Positions 1 to 22,206 of a DNA stretch of 22,206 bases are shown piece by piece. The stretch's first letter is position 1, and each line of letters begins with the position of its first letter. The DNA is from a virus: IMG/VR virus record IMGVR_UViG_3300015374_000074, positions 1 to 22,206 of that record; one strand, 5' to 3'. The position numbers were made by a program, and so were the translations under genes. The notes beneath the pieces were generated by a model that was not told the DNA's origin, did not search any database, and saw only the letters and a program-made list of their open reading frames with translations.

Positions 1-718
1 CGATGGTGCCGGTGATCGGCGGCGCGATGGCCGTGCCGGCGAGCGTCTGCCCGGCATGGGTGGCCGTCTGGGCGATGGTGCCGGTAACGCCGGTCGACGC
101 CTCTTTGATCTCCCACAGGATGCCGATGCTATCGGTGCCGGTCGAGGTCCAGCTGACCGACTGCGCCGCGCTCGCGGCATCGGTGAACAGGGTGTGGCGC
201 AGATTGGTCGTCGGCGCCGAGTTGATGATCGAGGTATAGCCTTGCGCGCTCGGTGTCGCGGTCGGCGCGGCGCCGGCATTTTGCGCGTTCAGCGCGAGGC
301 CCAGTGACACTGACGCCAGGGCGGACGGCGCCGTCACCGCCGGATCGCCAGCGGTATTCTGGTTGATCCCGATATTGCTGGTGTCGGTGCTGGCGCCGGT
401 ATAGGCGACCAGCATCAGCGAGCAACCGATGGCGCCGGCCGAGGTAACCGTCGCCGTCATCGCTGCCGGCGAGGAACCGGCCACCCAGTAGTAGGTCGCG
501 GTTTTTAAATTGCCGGCGCCGACCGAGAGATTGGTGCCGCTGACCAGCGTCCACGTATTCCCGGCGCTGTCGGTGATCGTCGGGATCGCCGCCGCGCCGG
601 TCCGCGCGTTCAAAAACGCGATGTGCAAGGCCGACGCTGTCGGCGTGAAGCTCGCCGAAGTGAAAGAAGTCGCCGCGGCGCCGCTGTTAACATGGATCGT
701 GACAGCGGAAATCGCCAT
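1..718 (-). CDS. Virion/tail-associated protein, C-terminus beyond left edge
   Basis: The reading frame opens at ATG 718 and stays open to the window edge, giving about 239 residues without a stop. A strong AGGAGG-type ribosome site lies about 8-10 bases upstream of the ATG. The protein is rich in Ala, Thr, Ser and Gly with few charged residues and begins MAISAVTIHVNSGAAATSF. Alternating small and beta-branched residues suggest a beta-sandwich or fibre-like fold, as in many phage tail or head-decoration proteins. It is the last visible gene of the packaging/virion block and follows two similar small genes. No catalytic motif is seen. The virion role is inferred from composition and position; the family is not recognised. 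Confidence 0.75.
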   Translation of the reverse strand, partial: MAISAVTIHVNSGAAATSFTSASFTPTASALHIAFLNARTGAAAIPTITDSAGNTWTLVSGTNLSVGAGNLKTATYYWVAGSSPAAMTATVTSAGAIGCSLMLVAYTGASTDTSNIGINQNTAGDPAVTAPSALASVSLGLALNAQNAGAAPTATPSAQGYTSIINSAPTTNLRHTLFTDAASAAQSVSWTSTGTDSIGILWEIKEASTGVTGTIAQTATHAGQTLAGTAIAPPITGTI

Positions 719-731
719 GCCGCGCGCCCTC

Positions 732-980
732 CTAGGCTGTGAACGTCCCGATGCTCGAGAAGTTGGTGGCGCCCTGCAGGGTCGCGAACGCCGCCTGGGC
801 GCCCGGAAGATTGTTGTAGGTGGTGCCCATCTTCACATTCAGCCACGCCAACAGGCGGCCGTTGAAGTCGCCGGTGGTGATGCCCGCCGCTTCGAAACGG
901 GCGATCCAGTCGCCGTTATAATCGAAGGCCTTGCCGGTGACGGCGCGCAGCGAGGCCTGCCGGAGACCTTGGTTGCTCAT
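732..980 (-). CDS. Small hypothetical virion-block protein
   Basis: Encodes 82 residues beginning MSNQGLRQASLRAVTGKAFD. The start is set by a 4-base ATGA overlap with the stop of the preceding 142-residue gene, so a longer in-frame start at 1004 is less likely. The N-terminal half looks helical, with WIARFEAAGITTGDFNGRLL; the C-terminal half is Ala/Thr/Gly rich. No known domain or membrane segment is seen. Tight coupling to its neighbour and position downstream of the portal suggest a structural or assembly role, but this is inference only. Confidence 0.75.
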   Translation of the reverse strand: MSNQGLRQASLRAVTGKAFDYNGDWIARFEAAGITTGDFNGRLLAWLNVKMGTTYNNLPGAQAAFATLQGATNFSSIGTFTA

Positions 981-1405
981 GTTTCTGGCATCGTGAAGGT
1001 CCACGAGGTGACGGCGACATTGCCGCCGGCGACGATGGACGTGGTGTTCAACTGAAGGTCGAAGCTCGATGTGGTGCCGACCGAACCGTCGATCACTGCC
1101 GTGCCGGAACCATTGATGGCGCGGAACCAGGTCGCGGTGCCGGTGGCGTCGGCGGACGAATCGGCGGTGATGCTCGATGCGGTGGCGCGCCCGCCCGGAT
1201 TGGCGTCGGCGGCATTGCCGAAGGCCGGGTTCGACAGGGTGAGTTCGGCCAGGAGCACCTGCGAGGACACCGCCGTATCGGGATCGTTCGGCTGGGTGCC
1301 GTCGTAAATCCGCAGTTTGCCGGCGCCGCCGATATCGAGGCGGTCGACGATGGCGTCGCAGGCAGCGATGGCCGCGGCATTAGAGATTCGGGTTTGCAGC
1401 GCCAT
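977..1405 (-). CDS. Virion-associated hypothetical protein (beta-rich)
   Basis: A 142-residue protein starting MALQTRISNAAAIAACDAIV, with a GGAGGAGG ribosome site about 6 bases upstream. A short N-terminal helix is followed by IGGAGKLRIYDGTQP and then a Thr/Ser/Ala-rich stretch likely to form beta strands, ending VAVTSWTFTMPET. Proteins with this start and composition are common in phage structural blocks; I do not know a named family. It overlaps the portal gene end by 26 bases and the next gene by 4, so the three are probably translationally coupled. It could be a decoration, tail-tube-adapter or fibre-associated protein. Confidence 0.75.
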   Translation of the reverse strand: MALQTRISNAAAIAACDAIVDRLDIGGAGKLRIYDGTQPNDPDTAVSSQVLLAELTLSNPAFGNAADANPGGRATASSITADSSADATGTATWFRAINGSGTAVIDGSVGTTSSFDLQLNTTSIVAGGNVAVTSWTFTMPET

Positions 1406-3746
1406 TCTGGCCTCCTCCGGCTATCTGCGGTTGCGCGGTGTAAGTGCGCCCATCGGGCGTAGTGATCGTTTTCGGCGCCTGGATCGCCTGCATGAGTTGG
1501 GCATTGCTCTGCATGATCAGTTGCCCGATCTGCTGCATGGCGGCCTGGAAGGCCTGGGCAATCTGGTCGATGGGGTCGAGCATCTGTTGCCCTTCGGCAA
1601 TTTCGGGCGGAATTTCTGGTGCCGCGGCGCCGTTGGTCGGACCAGCCGGGCGCTTTGCCGCCAGGGTCATGATGGCCTGATTGCGACTGTTGCGCAGGCC
1701 TTGGCTCGCCTCCGCTTGGCTCTGCTGCAGCTTCTGCTGCGCCGCCATCTCGGCCTGCTGCTGCGCCGCCTGGGCCGCCTGCGCTTGCTGGTCGAGCGTC
1801 TGCATGTGCTGCTGCTGCCCGAATTGCAGTTCTTGCTGGCTCTGCTGGCCGGCGAGCGCCAATTGGTGATTGAGCTTCTGCGCCTCCAGTGCCTGCTGCT
1901 GTTCGAATTTCTGCTGGTTCTGCGCCAGATCCATGTCGTGCATCTGCTGCTTGTGGGCGAGTTCGGCCTGCATGCCCTGCTGCTTGAGGCCGTGCTCCTG
2001 CTGCATCATCTGGCCGCGCATCTGCATCTCCTGCTGCGTCGCCTGTGCCTTGACCTCTTCCGGCGACGGTTGCGGCGGCGCTTGAGCCGCTGCCTGCGCC
2101 TTCTGCTCGAGCGACTGGATGGTCTTCTCGATGGTGTCTTCCAATTCCCTCGCCGTGCGGAAGCCGCGCGTCACGAACAGCATGATCTGGCCGATCAGCG
2201 GCAGCAGGTCGGGTACCGCCTGCGCCATCGGCATCGCCTCCTTCATCATGCCGCCGATGGCGGTGGCGAACTCGATGCGGCGCTGCTTTTCGGTGTTCTC
2301 GTCGGGCTGGATGGTCGAGTCGGTTTCGATGTCGATCCTAAACGATCTCAGCCGGTCGTCTTTGAGCAACTGGAAGGCGGCGATGAGGTCTTCCTGCTGC
2401 TGCTGATATTCCGGCGTCAGCATGTTGGCCATTTCGAGCAATTGCTGGGGCTCGAAAGCTTCGGCCATGATCTCGCAGGAAATGTGCAGAAGATCGCGGG
2501 CGAAGCGCTGGATATCCTGCTGCCGGTCGCGGATGCGTAAAGACCCGGTCTGCGTCTTGATTTCCTGGGCGCCCAGAGTTTCGTTCGGATCCGTCGCACC
2601 CCTGAGAATGTCGCTCAACCCGGTGATCTGGTAAACATCGTCGATCAGCTGCCGACGCAGTTCAACGCACGCCGTGATGGTGTCGGCCACCTGTTTGATC
2701 GGCAGGAAGATGATGGCGTTGGCGCCGCCGCGCTCCCCGAAAGCCGCCCACGATTCGATGCCGATCATTTTATTCTCGACATTGGGACTGAGCGCCGTCT
2801 CGATAGCTTGGGTGCTATCCTCCGCGCCCTTGGGGTAGAAGCCGACCAGTTTCAGACTATCGGTCAGCGACGCGATGCGCCGCGTCAGATCGTCGATTTC
2901 CTCCGCTTGGTCCTGATAATAGCGATAGTCGGGAATCGGAATCAGGCTGTCCGAGGTCAGCGTCGCGAACAGCGGCCGCGGGCACGGCCAGAAGTCCTTC
3001 AACGTGTAGAGCGGGTCCGCGACCTCGAGCGGCCTCTTGCCGCTGGGCGCGATGAAATAGACCTTCGATGCGGTGCGGTCCCAAATTTCCCAGACGGAAT
3101 ATTTTCCCTCCAGCGCTTTCTTCTCGGCATCGGTGAGGCCCTGCTTGGGGACATTGTCCGGTGACATGCCGCCGAGGTCCGAATCCGACAGGCCCTTGAA
3201 TCGCTCCTTCATCTCGGGCTTGGAGAAATAGCTGCGCTTGCCGACCCACGTGACCTCAGACCAATTTCTCCCCGGCTTGAATAAAAAATCCCGCCAGTGG
3301 ATGTAATCGAAGGCCAGCATGTCCTCGTTGGCGCGGCGCACCCAGACGATGCCGCGACCTGGCAGGATCACGTCGTCGCGGGCGAGCTTCATTGCGTCAT
3401 CCAGCTTGCCGCATTCGAATTGGTACGCCGCGACGCGCTCGAGCAAGGTGCCGACGAGCATCCCCGGGGGATCCTTGTCTTTGAAGCGGCGCGAGATCTC
3501 GGGCTTCGGGGTCTGCGCGTACAAGGCCGGCTTCAGGATTTCCGCATTGCTCCAGAGCATGGCGAACTTGCGTCTGGCCGAGCGCGTCTGATCGCCCTGC
3601 TTGCGATACAAGCGGATGATCTTGTCGGCCGCTTCGTAGAACTCCTGATTGTATTTATTGGCGCGCTCTAATTCTCTGAGCCAGCGTGCCTGAATGTCGG
3701 CGGGCTTGTCGGTTGATTTTGGCTGATCTTGCGGCTCTTCGGCCAT
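1380..3746 (-). CDS. Phage portal protein with long Gln-rich C-terminal tail
   Basis: At 788 residues this matches the size of large podovirus-type (P22-like) portals, which form the dodecameric DNA gate at one capsid vertex and bind terminase. The N-terminus carries basic helical segments (AADKIIRLYRKQGDQTRSARRKFAMLW) split by the usual portal clip/stem regions; residues about 390-420 include the conserved-looking ITGLSDILRGATDPNETLGAQ typical of these portals. Residues about 545-685 are an unusual Gln/Ala/Met-rich helix, likely coiled coil. It follows the large terminase and a small HTH gene, the expected order. No clear ribosome site precedes ATG 3746, and translation may depend on coupling to the overlapping upstream gene. 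The portal call is strong; the P22-like assignment is moderate. Confidence 0.92.
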   Translation of the reverse strand: MAEEPQDQPKSTDKPADIQARWLRELERANKYNQEFYEAADKIIRLYRKQGDQTRSARRKFAMLWSNAEILKPALYAQTPKPEISRRFKDKDPPGMLVGTLLERVAAYQFECGKLDDAMKLARDDVILPGRGIVWVRRANEDMLAFDYIHWRDFLFKPGRNWSEVTWVGKRSYFSKPEMKERFKGLSDSDLGGMSPDNVPKQGLTDAEKKALEGKYSVWEIWDRTASKVYFIAPSGKRPLEVADPLYTLKDFWPCPRPLFATLTSDSLIPIPDYRYYQDQAEEIDDLTRRIASLTDSLKLVGFYPKGAEDSTQAIETALSPNVENKMIGIESWAAFGERGGANAIIFLPIKQVADTITACVELRRQLIDDVYQITGLSDILRGATDPNETLGAQEIKTQTGSLRIRDRQQDIQRFARDLLHISCEIMAEAFEPQQLLEMANMLTPEYQQQQEDLIAAFQLLKDDRLRSFRIDIETDSTIQPDENTEKQRRIEFATAIGGMMKEAMPMAQAVPDLLPLIGQIMLFVTRGFRTARELEDTIEKTIQSLEQKAQAAAQAPPQPSPEEVKAQATQQEMQMRGQMMQQEHGLKQQGMQAELAHKQQMHDMDLAQNQQKFEQQQALEAQKLNHQLALAGQQSQQELQFGQQQHMQTLDQQAQAAQAAQQQAEMAAQQKLQQSQAEASQGLRNSRNQAIMTLAAKRPAGPTNGAAAPEIPPEIAEGQQMLDPIDQIAQAFQAAMQQIGQLIMQSNAQLMQAIQAPKTITTPDGRTYTAQPQIAGGGQNGAANPNL

Positions 3747-3933
3747 CGTGCGGTGTCAATCCGAATTGGCGGCAAATCTGCCGGATACGTTCGCGGCTGA
3801 CGCCATACTCGTCAGCCAGTTTCTGCAGCGTGACACCGGCGCTGCGTGCCCGCACCATAGGCGCGGCCCTTTCCGCCGTCCAGTAAGGCTTGCCCTTGCG
3901 GGTGCGGGGATGCTCGCCATTGCCATATTTCAT
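3655..3933 (-). CDS. Small HTH protein (sigma-70 region 4-like)
   Basis: A 92-residue basic protein beginning MKYGNGEHPRTRKGKPYW. Residues about 36-58, LQKLADEYGVSRERIRQICR, read as a helix-turn-helix closely resembling sigma-70 region 4, where SRERIRQI is the recognition helix. The C-terminal 30 residues are Arg/Lys-rich. The ATGA overlap with the large terminase stop fixes the start; a longer in-frame start at 3972 would sit inside terL. Its last 92 bases overlap the portal gene in another frame. It may be a DNA-binding regulator of late genes or a packaging-associated DNA-binding protein; it lacks the other sigma domains, so it is not a full sigma factor. Confidence 0.8.
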   Translation of the reverse strand: MKYGNGEHPRTRKGKPYWTAERAAPMVRARSAGVTLQKLADEYGVSRERIRQICRQFGLTPHDGRRAARSAKINRQARRHSGTLAQRIRARQ

Positions 3934-5351
3934 ACGCGGATACCTCGCTCGGGCCGGTCGTTCAGCTTCCACAGGTCATTGAGCGTCAGTTCCGGCAAAT
4001 CCCGGCGCTTGGCCTCCACCGGCGGATCCGCACGCACCGTCCGCCATGCCATGGCGAGATACCTGAACGCATCGGCAAAATGGCTGGTCCAGTCGTGCAG
4101 CGGGGTATCCTTGAACACCTTTTTCTCTTCGTCATACTCCACCCGGTAGAGGCGCAACGCCTCCAGTGCCTCGCCGCACTGGGGCTCATTGAACCACGCC
4201 AGCGGGATGGCAAGGCGGGCCGCGGCGATGCCGTCGTCGACCTTGTGGGCGGGCACCAGCACCGGCTTGCGGCCGAGCCTTATGAAGGTCTCGATGCGGG
4301 TCTTGCCGGAGCCGAGTTCGCGCACCCGGGCATCGTGGGGCACATAGTCGAGGCCCCATTTGCATTGCGGGGCATGGGCGCCCTTCCACTTTTCGAGCTT
4401 CGCCACCACGTCCTCGATCACCTCGTCGTGAGCGCCGGAAATACCGGCCAGGACGCGGAGTTCATTGCCGGAGACCTGGTAGAGCCACACGGCCATATTG
4501 GCGCCTTTTCCCAAATCCCAAGCTGAGTTGAGAGGCAGCGCCGGGTCGGCCATGAGGGGCACGAGCCGCCCGGCGCGCTCCGCTTTGGCTATCGCCTTGG
4601 CGAACATGGCCCCTAGCACGGCGGCTTCGAACGAGCAGTAATACTCCTGCTCGATTAAGGCGTCGCCGGCGTCGAGACCATAGAGGCCATGATATTCGCG
4701 GCGCTGCACCTCGACCAGATTGTGCGGGAATTCGGTGTCCTCGACCGTCAGCACCTCGCTAAACCAGCCATCCGGGTTAGCCGGCGACCATGGGTTATCG
4801 CGCGCCATCTGCAGCATGCGAAACGCGTGATTGCCGCGGCCGCGAGGGGTGGTGATGAACGAGGCCCAGCCGCCGTTCTGGGCCAGGATCGGGGCGAGAT
4901 AGGCCCAGGCAGCCGGGTTGGAGAGGGCGAATTCCGAGAACGTGATGCCGACCGGCGGCGAACCGACGAGCGAATCGGGATCATCTGATCCGACTAATTT
5001 CCACGTCGAGCCATTGATCAGTCGGATAAACATGTCGTGTTCCAGCGTCGTCTCACGCAGTTCACGCGGAAAGGCTTCGTCAATTCTACGCTGGCCGGTC
5101 GCCGGATTAATTGCTTCCCAGATCGCCTTGCGGGCTTGCGAATACTGTGGGAGCGCATGCCAATAGTTGCCCTTGCGCTGCCAAGCCGCGACCATCGTCT
5201 TGTGTAACTGCACGTCATCTTTGCCGGCACGCCGGTGCCAGATGAGCAATTCGCGCTTGCAGCCCATCTGCCAAGCCCGCCAGCTATTCCTCTGGTACGG
5301 CCTTGCCTCCCACTGGTTGGGCAGGCGAATCCATTTCGTCGGCGTGTCCAT
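3930..5351 (-). CDS. terL: Terminase large subunit
   Basis: A 473-residue packaging motor ATPase and nuclease. Residues 40-45 (RRAGKD) form the Walker A-like loop in the variant typical of one terminase group, followed by the Walker B/catalytic Glu region GITFSEFAL and the coupling motif ITTPRGRGNHAF. The nuclease half shows the acidic metal-binding start AWDLGKGANMAVW and the C-terminal LHDWTSHFADAFRYLAMAW. A GAGGA ribosome site lies about 7-8 bases upstream of ATG 5351. The gene overlaps the end of the small terminase by 68 bases and is followed by the HTH gene with an ATGA overlap. Length is normal for the family. Confidence 0.96.
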   Translation of the reverse strand: MDTPTKWIRLPNQWEARPYQRNSWRAWQMGCKRELLIWHRRAGKDDVQLHKTMVAAWQRKGNYWHALPQYSQARKAIWEAINPATGQRRIDEAFPRELRETTLEHDMFIRLINGSTWKLVGSDDPDSLVGSPPVGITFSEFALSNPAAWAYLAPILAQNGGWASFITTPRGRGNHAFRMLQMARDNPWSPANPDGWFSEVLTVEDTEFPHNLVEVQRREYHGLYGLDAGDALIEQEYYCSFEAAVLGAMFAKAIAKAERAGRLVPLMADPALPLNSAWDLGKGANMAVWLYQVSGNELRVLAGISGAHDEVIEDVVAKLEKWKGAHAPQCKWGLDYVPHDARVRELGSGKTRIETFIRLGRKPVLVPAHKVDDGIAAARLAIPLAWFNEPQCGEALEALRLYRVEYDEEKKVFKDTPLHDWTSHFADAFRYLAMAWRTVRADPPVEAKRRDLPELTLNDLWKLNDRPERGIRV

Positions 5352-5776: not shown

Positions 5777-6562
5777 ATGCTCACTGTCATCTCGCTCGGC
5801 GCCGGCGTCCAGTCCACGACGATGGCCTTGATGGTCAAGCATGGCGATCTGCCGCCGGTCGACGGCGCCATCTTCGCTGATACCGGCTGGGAGCCGAAGA
5901 AGGTCTATGCCCATCTCGACTGGCTCGAGACCGTCCTGCCGTTTCCGGTTCACCGCGTCTCGGCCGGGGATCTGCGCGCCAATGCGATGAGCCGCAGCAA
6001 TACAACCGGCGGTCGTTTTTCTGTCATCCCTTGGTACGTATTGCACGCCAATGGCGACGAGGGCATCGGCCGCCGCCAATGCACCAAGGAGTACAAAATC
6101 ACCCCGATTTTGCGGAAGGTGCGCGAACTCCTGGGCGGCAAGACGCCGAAAAGCGGGGCAACCATGCTGATCGGCATTTCGATGGATGAGGCGATCCGCA
6201 TGAAGCCGAGCCGGGTCCAGTATATCGTCAACCAGTGGCCACTCATCGACAAGCGCATGAACCGCCGCGATTGCCTGAAATGGCTGGCCGATCGGCAATA
6301 TCCGACACCGCCGAAATCCGCCTGCATCGGCTGCCCGTATACCCCCGATAGCCGCTGGCGCGATTTGCGCGACAACTCGCCGGAGGAATGGCGCGATGCC
6401 GTCGAGGTCGACCGCGCCATCCGCCATTTGCCGAAAATGCGGGCCGAGCAATACATGCATAGCCAGCGGGTGCCGCTCGACCAAGCCGACCTGCGCACCC
6501 ATGACGAAATAGGCCAGCCCGACCTGTTCAACAATGAATGCGAAGGCATGTGCGGTGTCTAA
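5777..6562 (+). CDS. PAPS-reductase-like PP-loop protein with Cys cluster
   Basis: A 261-residue member of the adenine-nucleotide alpha-hydrolase / PAPS reductase superfamily. Residues 6-16 (SLGAGVQSTTM) are the modified PP-loop that binds ATP or an adenylyl group; FADTGWEPKKVY at 33-44 is the second family signature. Cys102 in RRQCTKEYK, Cys183/Cys186 in CIGCPY and Cys255/Cys259 in ECEGMCGV could hold an iron-sulfur cluster or carry sulfur, as in DndC-type and tRNA-thiolation enzymes. GAAGGAG precedes the ATG by about 8 bases. It shares an operon, with an 8-base overlap, with a DNA methyltransferase, hinting at nucleic-acid modification; true PAPS reduction is less likely because no sulfur-assimilation genes are nearby. 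The substrate is unknown. Confidence 0.88.
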   Translation: MLTVISLGAGVQSTTMALMVKHGDLPPVDGAIFADTGWEPKKVYAHLDWLETVLPFPVHRVSAGDLRANAMSRSNTTGGRFSVIPWYVLHANGDEGIGRRQCTKEYKITPILRKVRELLGGKTPKSGATMLIGISMDEAIRMKPSRVQYIVNQWPLIDKRMNRRDCLKWLADRQYPTPPKSACIGCPYTPDSRWRDLRDNSPEEWRDAVEVDRAIRHLPKMRAEQYMHSQRVPLDQADLRTHDEIGQPDLFNNECEGMCGV

Positions 6563-7094
6563 ACGCGCTCCCGGCATGCCACCGCGCTCGCTCTGGCCGA
6601 CGCCGCGCGAAGCGGTCCTCCCGCTGCTGCCGCATCTCGAGCCGGATTCGCGTTTCGTCGAGCCCTGCGCCGGCGATGGTGCTCTCGTCCGGCATCTGCA
6701 GAAGGCGCGCGGCGGCTGGCACTGCGTCGCTGCCTGGGACATCGAGCCGCGTGGCCCCGGCATCGAGCGTGGCGATGCCATGACCATGATCCCGCCGGAA
6801 GACGCCGAATACTTCATCACCAACCCGCCGTGGGAGCGCGATGTCCTGCATCCGCTGATCGAGCACCTGTCGGCGCAGCTGCCGACGTGGCTGCTGTTCG
6901 ATGCCGACTGGATGCATACGCGGCAATCGGCGCCCTACATGCGCTGGTGCCACGTCATCGTCTCGGTCGGGCGGGTGCAGTGGATCCCCGGCAGTGACAA
7001 TGTCGGCAAGGACAATTCGGCTTGGTATCTGTTCGACCGCATCCGCAAGCTGACGAAATACGGGACAGTTTTCCGTGGCCGGGACGCCGGGTGA
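6555..7094 (+). CDS. SAM-dependent N6-adenine-type DNA methyltransferase
   Basis: About 179 residues when read from GTG 6555, which has AAGG eight bases upstream and an 8-base overlap with the preceding gene; an ATG at 6534 is an alternative. EPCAGDGA at about residues 36-43 is the SAM-binding motif I, and TNPPW at 89-93 is the catalytic motif IV of amino-methyltransferases (usually DPPY/NPPY; here Trp ends it). The short length and lack of a clear target-recognition domain suggest a minimal phage enzyme. It probably modifies adenines to evade restriction, or acts together with the PP-loop protein. Methylation of RNA or protein cannot be excluded, since NPPY-type motifs also occur there. Confidence 0.85.
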   Translation: MSKRAPGMPPRSLWPTPREAVLPLLPHLEPDSRFVEPCAGDGALVRHLQKARGGWHCVAAWDIEPRGPGIERGDAMTMIPPEDAEYFITNPPWERDVLHPLIEHLSAQLPTWLLFDADWMHTRQSAPYMRWCHVIVSVGRVQWIPGSDNVGKDNSAWYLFDRIRKLTKYGTVFRGRDAG

Positions 7095-7738: not shown

Positions 7739-7920
7739 GGTTCAGGCTCCTCCTTGGTTGATTTCGGCGGCCATAGCCGCATGATGTCCTCGCGCTTGAA
7801 ATACACGTCCTTGTAGATCGCGCCGGAGACGCCGACGATGCACAGTTGACCGTCGATTTCCGCGATGCGGGAGCCAGGTCCGCACTCTTCCGGCGGAATT
7901 ACCACTCGTTTCTTGCTCAT
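7735..7920 (-). CDS. Small hypothetical protein in methyltransferase operon
   Basis: 61 residues starting MSKKRVVIPPEECGPGSRIA. The start is fixed by an ATGA overlap with the stop of the cytosine methyltransferase, and the end by an ATGA overlap with the next gene. A short beta-rich core (IAEIDGQLCIVGVSGAIYKD) is followed by a charged tail. No domain recognised. The chain of three coupled overlaps downstream of the methyltransferase argues that these proteins are made together. Confidence 0.75.
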   Translation of the reverse strand: MSKKRVVIPPEECGPGSRIAEIDGQLCIVGVSGAIYKDVYFKREDIMRLWPPKSTKEEPEP

Positions 7921-9200
7921 GCGATGTCCTCCACCATATCGATGCGCTGGCAGATCCAGCGAACGCAGTTGACCGCCATGCCATTGCCGAGCGCCTTGTA
8001 GCGCGGGCCATCCGATTTGCGCCCCGGCAGGTCCGTGTAGCCATCCGGCAAGCCCATCAGGCGCTCGCACTCAAGCGGCGTCAGGCGCCGCACCGACGCC
8101 ATTGAGGCGACAGCAGGCGGGTGCGCCTTGGCGTTGAGGCCGTGGCAGGGATCGCCCGCTTGCGGCTTTGAGCGGTTGTCCCGGCTGGTGACCTGCGTCG
8201 TGTCGAAGGCGATCAGCGGCGTTCCGCGCCCGCTGCCGTCCTCGCTGGCATCGAAACCATCGGCGCGCAGCGAATGCGCGATGAGCGGCGCTCCGCGTCC
8301 GGTGCCGTCTTCAGTCGCGCAGCGGCATTGCGTGGAAAGGGAATGCGCGACGAACGTCTCGCTCTCGAAATCGAGGCGCCCATGCGGCCCGCCATGGGAA
8401 TTCCTGGCGGTGGCAACATCTATCGGGCCGCTGGTGTTGTTGCCGCCGAAAGCGATGTAGGCGCCATGGCCGTCCAGATCATTCTGGCGCTCGAGGCTAT
8501 GGCCGAGCGGCCCGGCGGCGCCCGCGATCAATCCGCCGTCGCAGTCGTCGCAGTCGAAGTCGGTGCCGAGACCGCCACCGCCGCGAGTGCGCGCTGCAAT
8601 GGTAGGGGCAAGGTCTTTCCCCGCTTCGCGGCGCGGCGCAGGATCCCCCGACAGGCTTTGGCGCTCAAGTAGTACCGCTGCGGCGCGTCGCCAGTCAGGA
8701 TGTCCGATAACGAACACACGCCGCCGGCGCTGCGGAACGGCTCGAGGATGGCTGTCCACTCGGACAAACTGAGCGTCAAGCACTCGCCAGGTCGCATGAT
8801 ACCCGAGTTCTGCCAAGCCCCGGAGCAGGGTGCCAAAGTCTGATCCACCGTTGGATGACAGGACACCGGGGACGTTCTCCCAGACCAGCCAGCGGGGCCG
8901 ATAGCGGCGAGCGATGGCAAGATAGGTGAGCATGAGGTTGCCACGTGGATCATCCAATCCCGCTCGCAGTCCGGCGATGCTGAAACTTTGGCAGGGGGTT
9001 CCGCCGGCCAAAACGTCAATTGCGTGGTCGGGCCAGGACTCATAGTTGCGGATGTCTCCATGGTTGGGGATGCCTGGATAGTGGTGGCGAATCACCGCCG
9101 AGGGGAATTTCTCGTTCTCAGCAAAGAACACCGGCGCCCAGCTGCTCGGCACGCCAGCGGAGAAGCACTCGATGCCTGAACAGACGGTGGCGTAGCGCAT
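7917..9200 (-). CDS. DNA (cytosine-5) methyltransferase
   Basis: A 427-residue C5-cytosine methyltransferase, which transfers a methyl group from SAM to cytosine in DNA. Visible motifs: SAM-binding CSGIECFSAG (7-16), the catalytic PCQ loop GGTPCQSFS with Cys70, ENVPG (108-112), QRRRRVFVIG (157-166), and the C-terminal RRLTPLECERLMG (371-383) and ALGNGMAVNC (403-412). The variable target-recognition region (about 170-365) is long, Gly/Asp-rich and holds a repeat, EDGTGRGAPLIA (297-308) and EDGSGRGTPLIA (320-331). No restriction endonuclease is seen nearby, so it is probably a solitary phage enzyme protecting against host restriction. It is transcribed divergently from 9306. Confidence 0.96.
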   Translation of the reverse strand: MRYATVCSGIECFSAGVPSSWAPVFFAENEKFPSAVIRHHYPGIPNHGDIRNYESWPDHAIDVLAGGTPCQSFSIAGLRAGLDDPRGNLMLTYLAIARRYRPRWLVWENVPGVLSSNGGSDFGTLLRGLAELGYHATWRVLDAQFVRVDSHPRAVPQRRRRVFVIGHPDWRRAAAVLLERQSLSGDPAPRREAGKDLAPTIAARTRGGGGLGTDFDCDDCDGGLIAGAAGPLGHSLERQNDLDGHGAYIAFGGNNTSGPIDVATARNSHGGPHGRLDFESETFVAHSLSTQCRCATEDGTGRGAPLIAHSLRADGFDASEDGSGRGTPLIAFDTTQVTSRDNRSKPQAGDPCHGLNAKAHPPAVASMASVRRLTPLECERLMGLPDGYTDLPGRKSDGPRYKALGNGMAVNCVRWICQRIDMVEDIA

Positions 9201-10238: not shown

Positions 10239-10280
10239 GATTCCGGCCGGAAACTGGTGTTTTCCTATTTCCGGCCTTTC

Positions 10281-10374
10281 CGGTTGACATGGTCAGATCA
10301 GAATTTTCCCGGATCTGATTTGACCATTCGGGCGTCAAGCGAAATCCGCAATTTTCGCGAAATAGTGTCAACCG
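10281..10374. repeat. Nested inverted repeats with TTGAC half-sites
   Basis: Outer arms CGGTTGACA (10281-10289) and TGTCAACCG (10366-10374) are perfect inverted copies. Between them, 14-base arms at 10289-10302 (ATGGTCAGATCAGA) and 10314-10327 (TCTGATTTGACCAT) pair at 13 of 14 positions around an 11-base loop. Further TTGAC/GTCAA half-sites lie at about 10334 and 10391. Confidence 0.65.
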
Positions 10375-10460
10375 AAATGCGGGGCAGCCGTTGACGCTTA
10401 ATTGGCAGATTTGCCATTTAACCGTAGCAGGCGACGCAACTGGGCCAGTTGGCGCGCGTC

Positions 10461-10487
10461 TGTTGCCCATGTTGCCCATGTTGCCCG
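10461..10487. repeat. Triplicated 9-mer TGTTGCCCA
   Basis: Three adjacent copies: TGTTGCCCA (10461-10469), TGTTGCCCA (10470-10478), TGTTGCCCG (10479-10487). Confidence 0.85.
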
Positions 10488-10539
10488 GCATCTGGGGCCG
10501 CGCCGTCTTGAATCAAGATTGCGAATGAACCGGGAACAA

Positions 10540-11014: not shown

Positions 11015-11439
11015 AGCATCGAGGGCTGCTTGATGTGGCGGAAGGCCTCGATCTGCCGGGCCAGCGTCGCCAGGCGCTGCCGGCGCTCGTTGAGATCGGC
11101 CTTGCGGCGCGCGTAGCGGGCCAGCATCGGGCCATGCTGGCGGCGCAGGGCATCGAGGCGGGCGCGAATCCGCTCGCGCTTCTCCTTGGCCGCCGGCGTC
11201 ATGTCGACCAGCCACTGGAGCTTGGAAGGCTCCTCCTCGAGGTGGCGGGCGGCATATTGCGGATTGCCCCAGGCACGCCCGAGTTCCTGCAGCAGGTGAT
11301 CGCGCTCGGAGAGCACCGGCTCGGCCTCGAGTTGGGCGGCGGAAAGCCGGAGGCTGGCGTCGGCGGTTTCGGCCATGAGGGCATCGAAGTCAGCGACGAG
11401 GCGCTGGTAGTCGGCCAGGGTGAAGAGCTTTGAGGGCAT
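11011..11439 (-). CDS. Hypothetical coiled-coil protein
   Basis: 142 residues rich in Ala, Leu, Arg and Glu, with two likely coiled-coil stretches: about residues 5-55 (LADYQRLVADFDALMAETAD) and 85-135 (KEKRERIRARLDALRRQHGP). No catalytic motif. It starts at ATG 11439 with a weak ribosome site and is coupled to the following gene by ATGA. An iteron-rich 226-base gap separates it from vapE upstream, so it may be expressed from the same message. Function unknown. Confidence 0.75.
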   Translation of the reverse strand: MPSKLFTLADYQRLVADFDALMAETADASLRLSAAQLEAEPVLSERDHLLQELGRAWGNPQYAARHLEEEPSKLQWLVDMTPAAKEKRERIRARLDALRRQHGPMLARYARRKADLNERRQRLATLARQIEAFRHIKQPSML

Positions 11440-11484
11440 AAGTGTCCCAAAATGGCACAGGTCGGGGTTCTTAAAGGGTGCCGG

Positions 11485-11668
11485 GTGTCATGTGTGTCAC
11501 GTGTGCCATGTGTGTCGGGGTACTTCCTATATTATCCTCTTTCTCTCTCTCTCTCTCTCTCTCTAATAAGGAAAGACATGTCACACGTGTCACTAGACAC
11601 TTAAGTAATCGGCACGGCACGAAAAAGGGATGTCAAGCCGACGTGTCACCACGCGTCACCACGTGTCA
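11485..11668. repeat. Iteron-flanked AT/CT-rich segment, candidate replication origin
   Basis: Left side: GTGTCATGT (11485), GTGTCACGT (11494), GTGCCATGT (11503) and a degenerate GTGTCGGGG (11512), a strict 9-base period. Right side, in the same orientation: ATGTCA at 11578 and 11630, GTGTCA at 11587, 11643 and 11663, GCGTCA at 11653. Between them lies an AT-rich stretch (CTATATTAT) and a 23-base TC dinucleotide tract (11542-11564). The last iteron includes the vapE stop codon. Origins with iterons on both sides of an AT-rich core, next to a helicase/initiator gene, are known from SaPI-type islands; the origin call here is inference. Confidence 0.6.
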
Positions 11669-12976
11669 CAAGCCCTCCAAATCTTTCAGGTCACGCTGCG
11701 CCCTCTCGCGCGTCCAGTATCTTTCATGCCTGGAGCGCTTCCGCTCCCAGCCGAGCTTCTTCATGATGGCGCCGATGCGCTTATAGACGGGGCCGGAGAG
11801 ATTGAAATTGCTGATGTCGAGCCATTCGCAGATGTCTTCGCGTTTAACGATTGTCCAATCATCGCTCTGCTTGGCGATGATCTCCTCCCATGCATCCGCC
11901 TCCTGGCGGGCTTCCTGCTCGGCCAGGATGAAGCGCTCAAAGATGGGCGCCGGCCAATGCCGCTTCTTTTGGATCATGATCCAGTCGGCTGCTTCCGCGA
12001 ACAGCTGATCGCGGTCGCGCGTGAGCCCTTCAAGGTCGATGGTGCCGCATTTGACCGGCCAGAAGCGGCGTCCGCCGGTGGTGTCGCGCAGGTAGGTGTC
12101 CTCGTTGGTGGTGCCGATCAGGACGCAGGATCGGCGCTCCTGGCCGGGCAATTTGGCATAGGGGCGGCGGTAGTCTTCGACCTGGCGGCTCAGAAACGAT
12201 TTGAGGCGGTTGATTTCGCCGCGATTGTGGGAGGCGAGTTCTGAGTCCTCCACCAACCATTTGCCGGCCAGGAATGCCGAGACATCCTTATCGTTGTGGC
12301 CGTCCAAGGCGGGCATGTTATCGCCAAACCAGTCGCCGCCGAGGATGCGGCAGGCTTGGCTCTTGCCGATGCCTTGGGCGCCCTCGAGCACGACCATGTA
12401 GTCGCATTTGCAACCCGGATCGTAGATGCGGGCGACCATCGAACCGAGAAAGCAGCGCGAGATTTCCTGCAGGTAGTCGACGCTGTTCGCCGTGGCATCG
12501 AAATAGTGGGAAAACAGGTAGCTCATCCGGTACTCGCCATCCCAGACGAGGCTGTCGAGATACTGGATAACCGGATGGACGCCGATTTGCTGGCATCGGT
12601 AATCGACGGCATTGCGGATGAGTTCTAGCCCGATGGTCGGGAATTCGAAGTGCTGCACGTAGATCTGGGTATGCAGATAGTCGGCATCGGTGAGGCGGAC
12701 ATAGCCGGTGAGCGCTTCGCCGTCGAATTCGGCCATGCCTGGGATCCATTGCAGAAGCACCGGGGCTTGGTCCATCTCATTGAAGCCGAAGCAATGGCTG
12801 AGGAACGGATCCTCCGCAAAGAGGATCTTCAGGTTGTGGAGGTTTTTAAGCGGCTTGCCCTTGGCGCCGCACTGAAACCTGGCGCGCCAATCATTCGCGG
12901 AGAGGGCCTTCGCACGGGTTTGGGCAATCCGGGCGAAGGGGTCTTCGATCCGGCCAAGGCGGACAATGTCGGGCAT
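11666..12976 (-). CDS. VapE-family (virulence-associated E) SF3-like helicase/ATPase
   Basis: 436 residues. The ATPase domain shows Walker A EGAQGIGKS (198-206), the acidic strand WLVEDSEL (240-247) and the family signature GTTNEDTYLRD followed by GGRRFWPV (288-308). These match the VapE/PF05272 group found in phages and phage satellites, where they act in DNA replication, often with a primase. No primase motif is visible in the N-terminal 130 residues, so this is a helicase-only form. The C-terminus (KREDICEWLDISNFNLSGPV onward) resembles a winged-helix DNA-binding region that could bind the adjacent iterons. AAGGA precedes ATG 12976. It follows the VRR-NUC gene by 83 bases. Confidence 0.92.
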   Translation of the reverse strand: MPDIVRLGRIEDPFARIAQTRAKALSANDWRARFQCGAKGKPLKNLHNLKILFAEDPFLSHCFGFNEMDQAPVLLQWIPGMAEFDGEALTGYVRLTDADYLHTQIYVQHFEFPTIGLELIRNAVDYRCQQIGVHPVIQYLDSLVWDGEYRMSYLFSHYFDATANSVDYLQEISRCFLGSMVARIYDPGCKCDYMVVLEGAQGIGKSQACRILGGDWFGDNMPALDGHNDKDVSAFLAGKWLVEDSELASHNRGEINRLKSFLSRQVEDYRRPYAKLPGQERRSCVLIGTTNEDTYLRDTTGGRRFWPVKCGTIDLEGLTRDRDQLFAEAADWIMIQKKRHWPAPIFERFILAEQEARQEADAWEEIIAKQSDDWTIVKREDICEWLDISNFNLSGPVYKRIGAIMKKLGWERKRSRHERYWTRERAQRDLKDLEGL

Positions 12977-21165: not shown

Positions 21166-22206
21166 CTACGGTTGAAGGCTGCTCACAAACATCTCGAGGT
21201 TGGTATAGCCCGAGGCGTCGATGGCGTTCGGATCGCCGCCATGCGCCGCTTCCCAGGCATCCGACATGCCATCGCCGTCGGCGTCCGGGTAGGGCGTCCC
21301 CGCATCCAGCGTCGGCCACGGCAGCGGATCGCACTGCTGGGCGGTCGATGAGGACGAGCATATCGGGACATCGCCGGTCCCGGTGCGGTAGTCCTCGACG
21401 ATCTTGGCATCGGCGCTGTCGCGGTGACGGGGGAATGCCCCGGCATTGGCCAGGACATAGGCCTCCACTTCGGATGCCGGCATCGCCGGGCCGGTCATGC
21501 CAATGAGTGGCGTGCTGAGTGTCCCATTGACGGCCGGATCGTCGACCAGCGGATGCGCGTAGCAGTCGGTGCTCTCGTCCAGATGCGCGTCATTGGGATT
21601 TTGCACGCCATTGATTGGCGGCCCGCCGAGCAGATTGCTCGAGAAGCCGATCATGATGTTGTCTTGAATGCAGATATGCAGCGGATCGGCGAGCGTCGAG
21701 CAGGTGACGCCGGGAATACCGTGGTTCTGCTCACAGGTGCCGCTCATCATGTTGCGGTCGTCGAAAAACCAGCTGTCGACGGGGAAGATGTCGTGCTGGA
21801 CATTGTTGTTCAATCTTTTCTTGCTCTTTGGACCAAATTTGAAAACGTTCCCGACCACATTGGCCCACTGCTCGCCGCGCCCGTCCCACTGATCCCACCA
21901 CGCTTCCGAGCAATTATAGACGACGTTGTTCCTGAACTCGTACTCGCCGCTGATACCGCCGCCGTCGCGGATGCCTCCGGCAGTCAAGGCGCCGCCGACC
22001 GAATTCGGACACCTTATCGTATTGCTGGCGATCAGATTGCCAATCATGGCCACGCCAGCCGAACGTTCATTCGGACCCTTGCTATGATTCCGCAGGCCCT
22101 CATAGATCATCGAGTTGCTGATCGTCACGCGATCAACCGGCGACGGCGTTTCCTTGGTCGCCAGTCCGGTGATCGGCGACACATCGATGCCTTCATCGGT
22201 CGACCA
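21166..22206 (-). CDS. Pectate-lyase-like beta-helix protein, N-terminus beyond right edge
   Basis: 346 residues are visible and the frame stays open to the window end, so the start lies outside. The visible part begins WSTDEGIDVSPITG, then VTISNSMIYEGLRNHSKGPN and MIGNLIASNTIRCPNSVGG, matching the PL1-type pectate lyase pattern as I know it. The C-terminus DADGDGMSDAWEAAHGGDPN plus SGYTNLEMF is the calcium-binding tail often found on secreted bacterial pectate lyases. The enzyme would cleave polygalacturonate or a similar polymer by beta-elimination. Phage relatives are tail depolymerases, but the bacterial-type tail suggests capture from a secreted enzyme. Activity and location are inferred. 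Confidence 0.85.
   Translation of the reverse strand, partial: WSTDEGIDVSPITGLATKETPSPVDRVTISNSMIYEGLRNHSKGPNERSAGVAMIGNLIASNTIRCPNSVGGALTAGGIRDGGGISGEYEFRNNVVYNCSEAWWDQWDGRGEQWANVVGNVFKFGPKSKKRLNNNVQHDIFPVDSWFFDDRNMMSGTCEQNHGIPGVTCSTLADPLHICIQDNIMIGFSSNLLGGPPINGVQNPNDAHLDESTDCYAHPLVDDPAVNGTLSTPLIGMTGPAMPASEVEAYVLANAGAFPRHRDSADAKIVEDYRTGTGDVPICSSSSTAQQCDPLPWPTLDAGTPYPDADGDGMSDAWEAAHGGDPNAIDASGYTNLEMFVSSLQP

Follow-up and report, generated by a model that had tools for sequence, protein, structure and literature searches.

The window analysed in this study is a whole IMG/VR record (IMGVR_UViG_3300015374_000074), a linear viral contig of 22,206 bases in which no tRNA gene was found. One of its ends carries the 3′ part of a gene whose predicted product is a polysaccharide lyase (Table 1). 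The reading frame closes with a stop codon at 21166-21168 and is open at its 5′ end, where it is cut by the end of the contig. The fragment represents only the second half of the lyase and starts three residues ahead of the first active-site aspartate; it lacks the N-terminal domains altogether, as well as the first half of the beta-helix. Since it matches PHROG 27797 “pectate lyase” in a profile search (8.8e-8) and the Pfam model TSP3_bac (8e-6), the frame is not a chance one. Over its whole length, the fragment is 87-88% identical to genes in two other viral contigs, L002 (IMGVR_UViG_3300009177_000151; designated L067 where the same contig is read whole) and L003 (IMG/VR contig 3300025941_000623). 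The dN/dS ratio between the window and L002 (0.111/0.856, about 0.13 by NG86) indicates purifying selection on the lyase protein among the phages. A sequence-only reading of the window had proposed a PL1-like lyase with a calcium-binding tail, and these matches bear it out.

The same reading had placed the gene directly upstream of virion-like genes. This holds only loosely for the window, where p54 and p600 come next and the clear virion genes lie at the other end, but it does describe L067, in which the lyase is located between the portal and capsid genes. Within the phage collection, relatives of p600 were found only in the hypothetical proteins of the two Roseobacter phages given in Table 1, and none were found among the viral contigs. 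Upstream of the terminase gene, the window also harbors a PAPS-reductase-like gene (5777-6562), which is grouped with two DNA methyltransferase-like genes, 6534-7094 (+) and 7917-9200 (-).

Table 1. Positions of the lyase fragment, its predicted functional sites and other genes of the window.
Feature	Position	Strand	Remark
Lyase gene, 3′ part	21166..22206	(-)	346 residues, equivalent to residues 367-711 of the complete 711-aa L002 relative
Active-site Asp codon	22195..22197	(-)	window residue 4, D370 of L002; invariant in the family
HxKG-segment Lys codon	22078..22080	(-)	window residue 43, K408 of L002
Putative catalytic-base Arg codon	22012..22014	(-)	window residue 65, R430 of L002; aligned to the Arg in SRTP of PfPL1
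TSP3_bac calcium-binding motif DADGDGMSDAW (predicted)	21226..21285	(-)	residues 308-327
p54, Pro/Lys/Asp-rich ORF of 54 aa	20990..21151	(-)	next downstream of the lyase, same strand
p600, ORF of 600 aa	19175..20977	(-)	downstream of the lyase; related to hypothetical proteins of Roseobacter phages CRP-3 and CRP-212
Terminase large subunit	3930-5351	(-)	clear virion gene, contig end opposite the lyase
Portal	1380-3746	(-)	clear virion gene, contig end opposite the lyase
phrog_3758 virion protein	977-1405	(-)	L067 homologue among the genes surrounding the lyase
p90	732-1004	(-)	L067 homologue among the genes surrounding the lyase
Start of p563-like gene	2-718	(-)	L067 homologue among the genes surrounding the lyase

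Family, fold and active site of the lyase

The closest solved structure by sequence is that of PfPL1 (PDB 9buj, 1.9e-10), a pectin-active lyase of PL1 subfamily 2 (PMC11229556). For comparison with the PDB, an AlphaFold model of residues 214-711 was used (pLDDT 74.7, pTM 0.83), the second of two models; the first, built for the full protein, modelled residues 1-212 poorly, and nothing is claimed for that part. PfPL1 was the best match of the second model (2.8e-14), followed by VexL (7e-11) and by the related pollen allergen Jun a 1. All 13 PDB hits below 1e-3 were PL1-type pectate or pectin lyases, VexL or Jun a 1, and the first tailspike fold appeared at 0.015. Among predicted viral structures, only three proteins matched below 1e-3; the first two have lengths of 658 and 1094, which fit lyases of Cellulophaga phages.

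In 18-22 sequences of the family, neither D370 nor R430 varies. The arginine aligned to R430 is residue 220 of the PfPL1 chain, which fits the Arg220 that is part of the mechanism proposed for this enzyme (PMC11229556). The name PelZ would be wrong for the phage protein, as the L002 sequence matches the PelZ equivalog model at 1.6e-37 but far under its curated cut-off (129 vs 840 bits). No match of the L002 protein to Pfam Pectate_lyase_4 was obtained up to E 0.1, and two bacterial homologues (L006 and L007) match this model only below its cut-off, so “PL1_2-type”, which does not imply formal Pfam membership, is the appropriate description. These comparisons predict a polysaccharide lyase that is of the PL1 subfamily-2 type and carries a TSP3 calcium-binding tail. 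The predicted tail is a family trait, PfPL1 also terminating in a pseudo-EF-hand.

Listed subfamily-2 lyases include PfPL1, PelZ of Dickeya and BT_4115/4116/4119 of Bacteroides (PMC11229556). The phage protein, a predicted lyase, resembles them in its beta-helix core, catalytic arginine, C-terminal pseudo-EF-hand calcium site and signal peptide. In contrast to these, it is phage-encoded and possesses extra FN3 and Ig domains. VexL (PDB 6fi2), a periplasmic Vi-antigen depolymerase, has the PL1 fold in common with it but is bacterial, belongs to PL1 subfamily 13 and acts on capsule, and its sequence similarity is weak (E 0.036).

Complete relatives and the genome slot

In both L002 and L003, the lyase gene is complete, comprises 711 codons and has the start MRKALLLAGIASMALTSSALA. 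The start codon in L002 is well fixed, since it is the first start of the frame and at most 17 codons past the upstream stop (711 of 728 codons). The L002 protein consists of a predicted signal peptide (1-21), an fn3 domain (25-97), a Big_9 Ig domain (115-192), a Pro-Asp linker up to about residue 213, the lyase core (213-494 by PHROG 27797, 1.2e-37) and the TSP3 tail (673-692), with domains assigned by Pfam. The signal peptide was called from its classical pattern, MRK followed by ALLLAGIASMALT and then SSALA ahead of VKPPP. In a crude feature count, the lyase start ranked top among the 41 genes of L067 and the window, albeit narrowly (2.2 vs 1.85 for a virion gene). Residues 1-212 contain the signal peptide, fn3 and Ig domains, and the search of the full-length protein gave no virion-attachment domain. 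A weak match to PHROG phrog_4971 “major tail protein” (3.1e-7) covers residues 12-93 only and corresponds to the fn3 domain. For the window protein itself, the N-terminus and export are inferred from these relatives; in the search for the missing 5′ part of its gene, the sole near-identical contig (L073) spanned the portal region, not the lyase. At L003:3-402, an ORF resembling part of a parallel beta-helix is fused in frame, at about base 402, to the C-terminal part of the portal, whereas the L067 sequence remains portal at this point; this join is either an assembly chimera or an insertion.

Viral contigs related to the window were fetched by portal similarity (n=36), and by simple ORF picking 19 of them also hold a scaffold-position gene and a capsid gene downstream of the portal. 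Rhizobium phage RHph_I3_18 and Bradyrhizobium phage ppBjS10J-1, both relatives by portal and terminase, share this module but have no lyase between portal and capsid. The gene order in L067 is portal, two tail-fibre-like genes, a phrog_3758-like gene, p563, p83, lyase, p90, an HNH gene, the scaffold-position gene and capsid. In the close relative L074, p563 is followed by p80 (35% identical to p83), an unrelated 152-aa gene and p90. The slot that holds the lyase thus varies in content between relatives. None of the 14 larger relatives carries the lyase anywhere on its contig; with a query of the same lyase family, this search tool did find the lyase in L002, L003 and L004. The gene therefore shows the features expected of a moron, lying inside a phage genome and missing at the same place in relatives, most of which are incomplete contigs. 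A scan for promoters and terminators around the lyase in L067, in which the promoter models were of the sigma-70 type only, gave nothing above chance, so the gene is probably read with the late operon.

The DNA similarity between the window and L067 ends at the lyase stop codon, after which the window continues with p54 and p600, a pattern consistent with a cassette transferred as one block. The gene order of L067 had also suggested that the window is a simple circular permutation; this was dropped because the window contains no homologues of the scaffold-position, capsid and tail genes of L067 and because p90 is placed differently. It lies between the phrog_3758 protein and p563 in the window (732-1405) and after the lyase in L067 (L067:3614-8442), so that the two phages differ by a shuffling of this region.

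Several further features were observed in the other contigs. The major capsid gene of L067 is split into three pieces (L067:10251-12631; 10251-10496, 11182-11748 and 12479-12631), whereas L074, L078 and L090 have it in one piece. The sequence of the first gap scores 34.7 bits (E 1.4e-6) against the Rfam group I intron model RF00028, short of the gathering score (50), and a LAGLIDADG-like ORF lies within this gap. The portal-scaffold region of L106 (L106:7806-8788) encodes two small proteins with signal-peptide-like starts. An unrelated phage contig, L004, harbors a 626-aa lyase of the same family between its terminase and portal genes (L004:6819-8699), for which an internal GTG start at codon 30 would yield a signal-peptide-like N-terminus.

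The closest phage isolates, with 39-47% protein identity, are the only guide to the hosts, which are probably soil alphaproteobacteria of a rhizobia-like kind. From their IMG identifiers, we take the contigs to come from soil or rhizosphere samples.

Proposed function, substrate and place of the enzyme in infection

We consider it likely that the gene is cargo of the moron type in a tailed phage, probably of soil alphaproteobacteria, and that it encodes an exported lyase of the PL1 subfamily-2 type directed at pectin-like polymers. Of the three options in the sequence-only reading, which were a captured tail depolymerase, a secreted auxiliary enzyme and a prophage border, the secreted enzyme is best supported by the signal peptide of the relatives, by their FN3 and Ig domains, which are common in exported enzymes of bacteria, and by the absence of a detected tail-binding domain. 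The lyase would be made late in infection together with the virion genes, exported by the host Sec system, and would come to act outside the cell as a free enzyme, either straight after export or once the cell has lysed. In the reaction, R430 would abstract the proton at C5 of a uronic acid, with chain cleavage by beta-elimination. The most likely substrate would be a homogalacturonan-like (pectic) polymer, with an acidic exopolysaccharide made by the host or by neighbouring cells in second place. The phage may benefit through a loosened matrix around infected cells and the spread of its progeny, or the host may be fed before lysis.

Regarding the substrate, the bacterial homologues show two types of gene neighbourhood, as judged by simple ORF picking, namely exopolysaccharide synthesis and uronate utilisation. 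The exopolysaccharide clade, mostly from Sphingomonadaceae together with Rhizobium, Sinorhizobium and Sphingobium plasmid copies, is found beside Wzy, Wzz, flippase and glycosyltransferase genes, and the utilisation clade beside TonB receptors, LacI regulators, TRAP transporters, KduI and UxaC. It is possible, though in our judgement the less probable case, that the phage enzyme follows the same export route but that its target, in place of plant pectin, is an acidic exopolysaccharide or a capsule belonging to the host or to cells nearby. The Sphingomonadaceae and rhizobial homologues that are nearest in the larger tree do sit in such synthesis clusters, and VexL works on the Vi capsule polymer. 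The phage branch adjoins the exopolysaccharide clade in the tree with weak support (80/8) and falls outside the utilisation clade (99/99), but AU tests rejected none of three placements of this branch. Furthermore, the HxKG segment is lost in 18 of 18 members of the core exopolysaccharide clade, whereas its lysine is retained in all 16 members of the utilisation clade and in the phage lyase, and PfPL1, the best match by both structure and sequence, is pectin-active. On the grounds of the active site and the PfPL1 match, pectin-like polymers appear slightly ahead of exopolysaccharide, and judged from the active site a plant polysaccharide is a plausible substrate. A clade of secreted PL1-like lyases, mostly from Sphingomonadaceae (L171-L184, L006 and L007), is encoded in exopolysaccharide-synthesis clusters and no longer has the HxKG segment of the active site; it is possibly a separate subfamily of exopolysaccharide lyases that is now labelled pectate lyase.

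A second alternative, which we regard as unlikely, is that the lyase resides in or on the virion despite its signal peptide and clears host capsule or exopolysaccharide at adsorption. An ordinary tailspike was rejected, as neither an attachment domain nor a tailspike fold match was detected. With beta-helix tailspikes and depolymerases, the lyase shares the parallel beta-helix and the predicted cleavage of polysaccharides; it differs from them in its signal peptide and in the poor structural matches (0.015 or worse), and the FN3-Ig-linker architecture is that of exported enzymes. In L067, the lyase does lie among virion genes and near two tail-fibre-like genes, and a podovirus from Manatee Spring with a related terminase encodes a bare 458-aa homologue, devoid of a signal peptide, adjoining its capsid gene. 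Homologous lyases also occur in Cellulophaga phages (phi39:1 gp26, phiSM gp9, Nekkels_1 gp55 and phi13:1 gp024). They belong to the same family, lie among structural genes and mostly have signal-peptide-like starts, but they are only about 30-34% identical, in the core only, and have different N-terminal parts. In addition, they lack the HxKG lysine and the proline after the catalytic arginine, whereas the window and L002 keep K408.

At least two of these Cellulophaga phage lyases are annotated as virion proteins by MS/MS. One is phi13:1 gp024, which has a fibre-type N-terminus. The other is phi39:1 gp26, which like its neighbour gp25 (L133:2273-5820) combines a signal-peptide-like start with a virion annotation by MS/MS; such starts are unexpected for proteins assembled in the cytoplasm. 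Conversely, phiSM gp9 has a signal-peptide-like start and no MS note, unlike its neighbours gp6, gp7, gp8, gp15 and gp16. Signal peptides on such lyases were also noted by the authors of the Nekkels study (PMC8776804). The proposal that the N-terminus would distinguish a secreted enzyme (signal peptide) from a tailspike (virion-binding domain) was followed up in the relatives; the outcome favours export but is not clean in view of phi39:1. Given the annotation of gp26, a signal peptide argues for export and is no proof of absence from virions. The captured tail depolymerase is accordingly the less likely option, with the phi39:1 cousin speaking for it. It is also conceivable, if rather improbable, that the lyase first leaves the cytoplasm through Sec and only afterwards attaches to the exterior of the phage particle, be it in the periplasm or once the cell has lysed, which would yield virions coated with a secreted enzyme; phi39:1 gp25 and gp26 would be the same case.

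That the window spans a prophage border, the lyase being a gene of the adjoining bacterial chromosome, might be suggested by its position at the contig end and by its family being common in bacteria, but this is highly improbable and was rejected on the gene order in the relatives, as phage genes flank the lyase on both sides in two other viral contigs. In addition, the G+C content of the last 1-kb bin (0.618) equals that of the rest of the contig, no integrase is among the annotated genes of the window, and no bacterial homologue above 46% identity was found in about 1,080 sampled genomes. Most of the sampling concerned Sphingomonadaceae and their surroundings, and the donor may belong to another lineage. 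The AU tests on one versus several origins of the phage lyases gave p values of 0.36 with the Cellulophaga phages and 0.18 with L004.

Implications for viral pectate lyases

PL1 pectate lyases of soil viruses have been listed as auxiliary genes, “not validated” (PMC12713726), and a PL3 pectate lyase was reported from mangrove soil viruses (PMC6460857). The present gene resembles these in being a pectate-lyase-type gene on a presumed soil viral contig. The earlier cases are family annotations, likened here by description, whereas full architecture, genome slot and selection are documented in this study. Literature searches for exported phage depolymerases found nothing direct. Phage PL1 lyases as such are already known, and the present lyase adds an unusual architecture; further additions are its genome slot, the purifying selection and cautions on virion association and substrate.

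A domain match alone is often enough for a viral pectate lyase to be classed as an auxiliary metabolic gene, although many beta-helix lyases are tail parts. The comparison with the Cellulophaga phages shows that a signal peptide cannot safely be assumed to mean that a protein is not in the virion. Likewise, the split of the bacterial relatives between exopolysaccharide synthesis and uronate utilisation cautions against equating “pectate lyase” with “plant pectin”. In the present case, the full-length gene, its slot, the conserved active site and the architecture of the relatives point to an exported enzyme in relatives of rhizobia phages, which makes this lyase a good candidate for a direct test.
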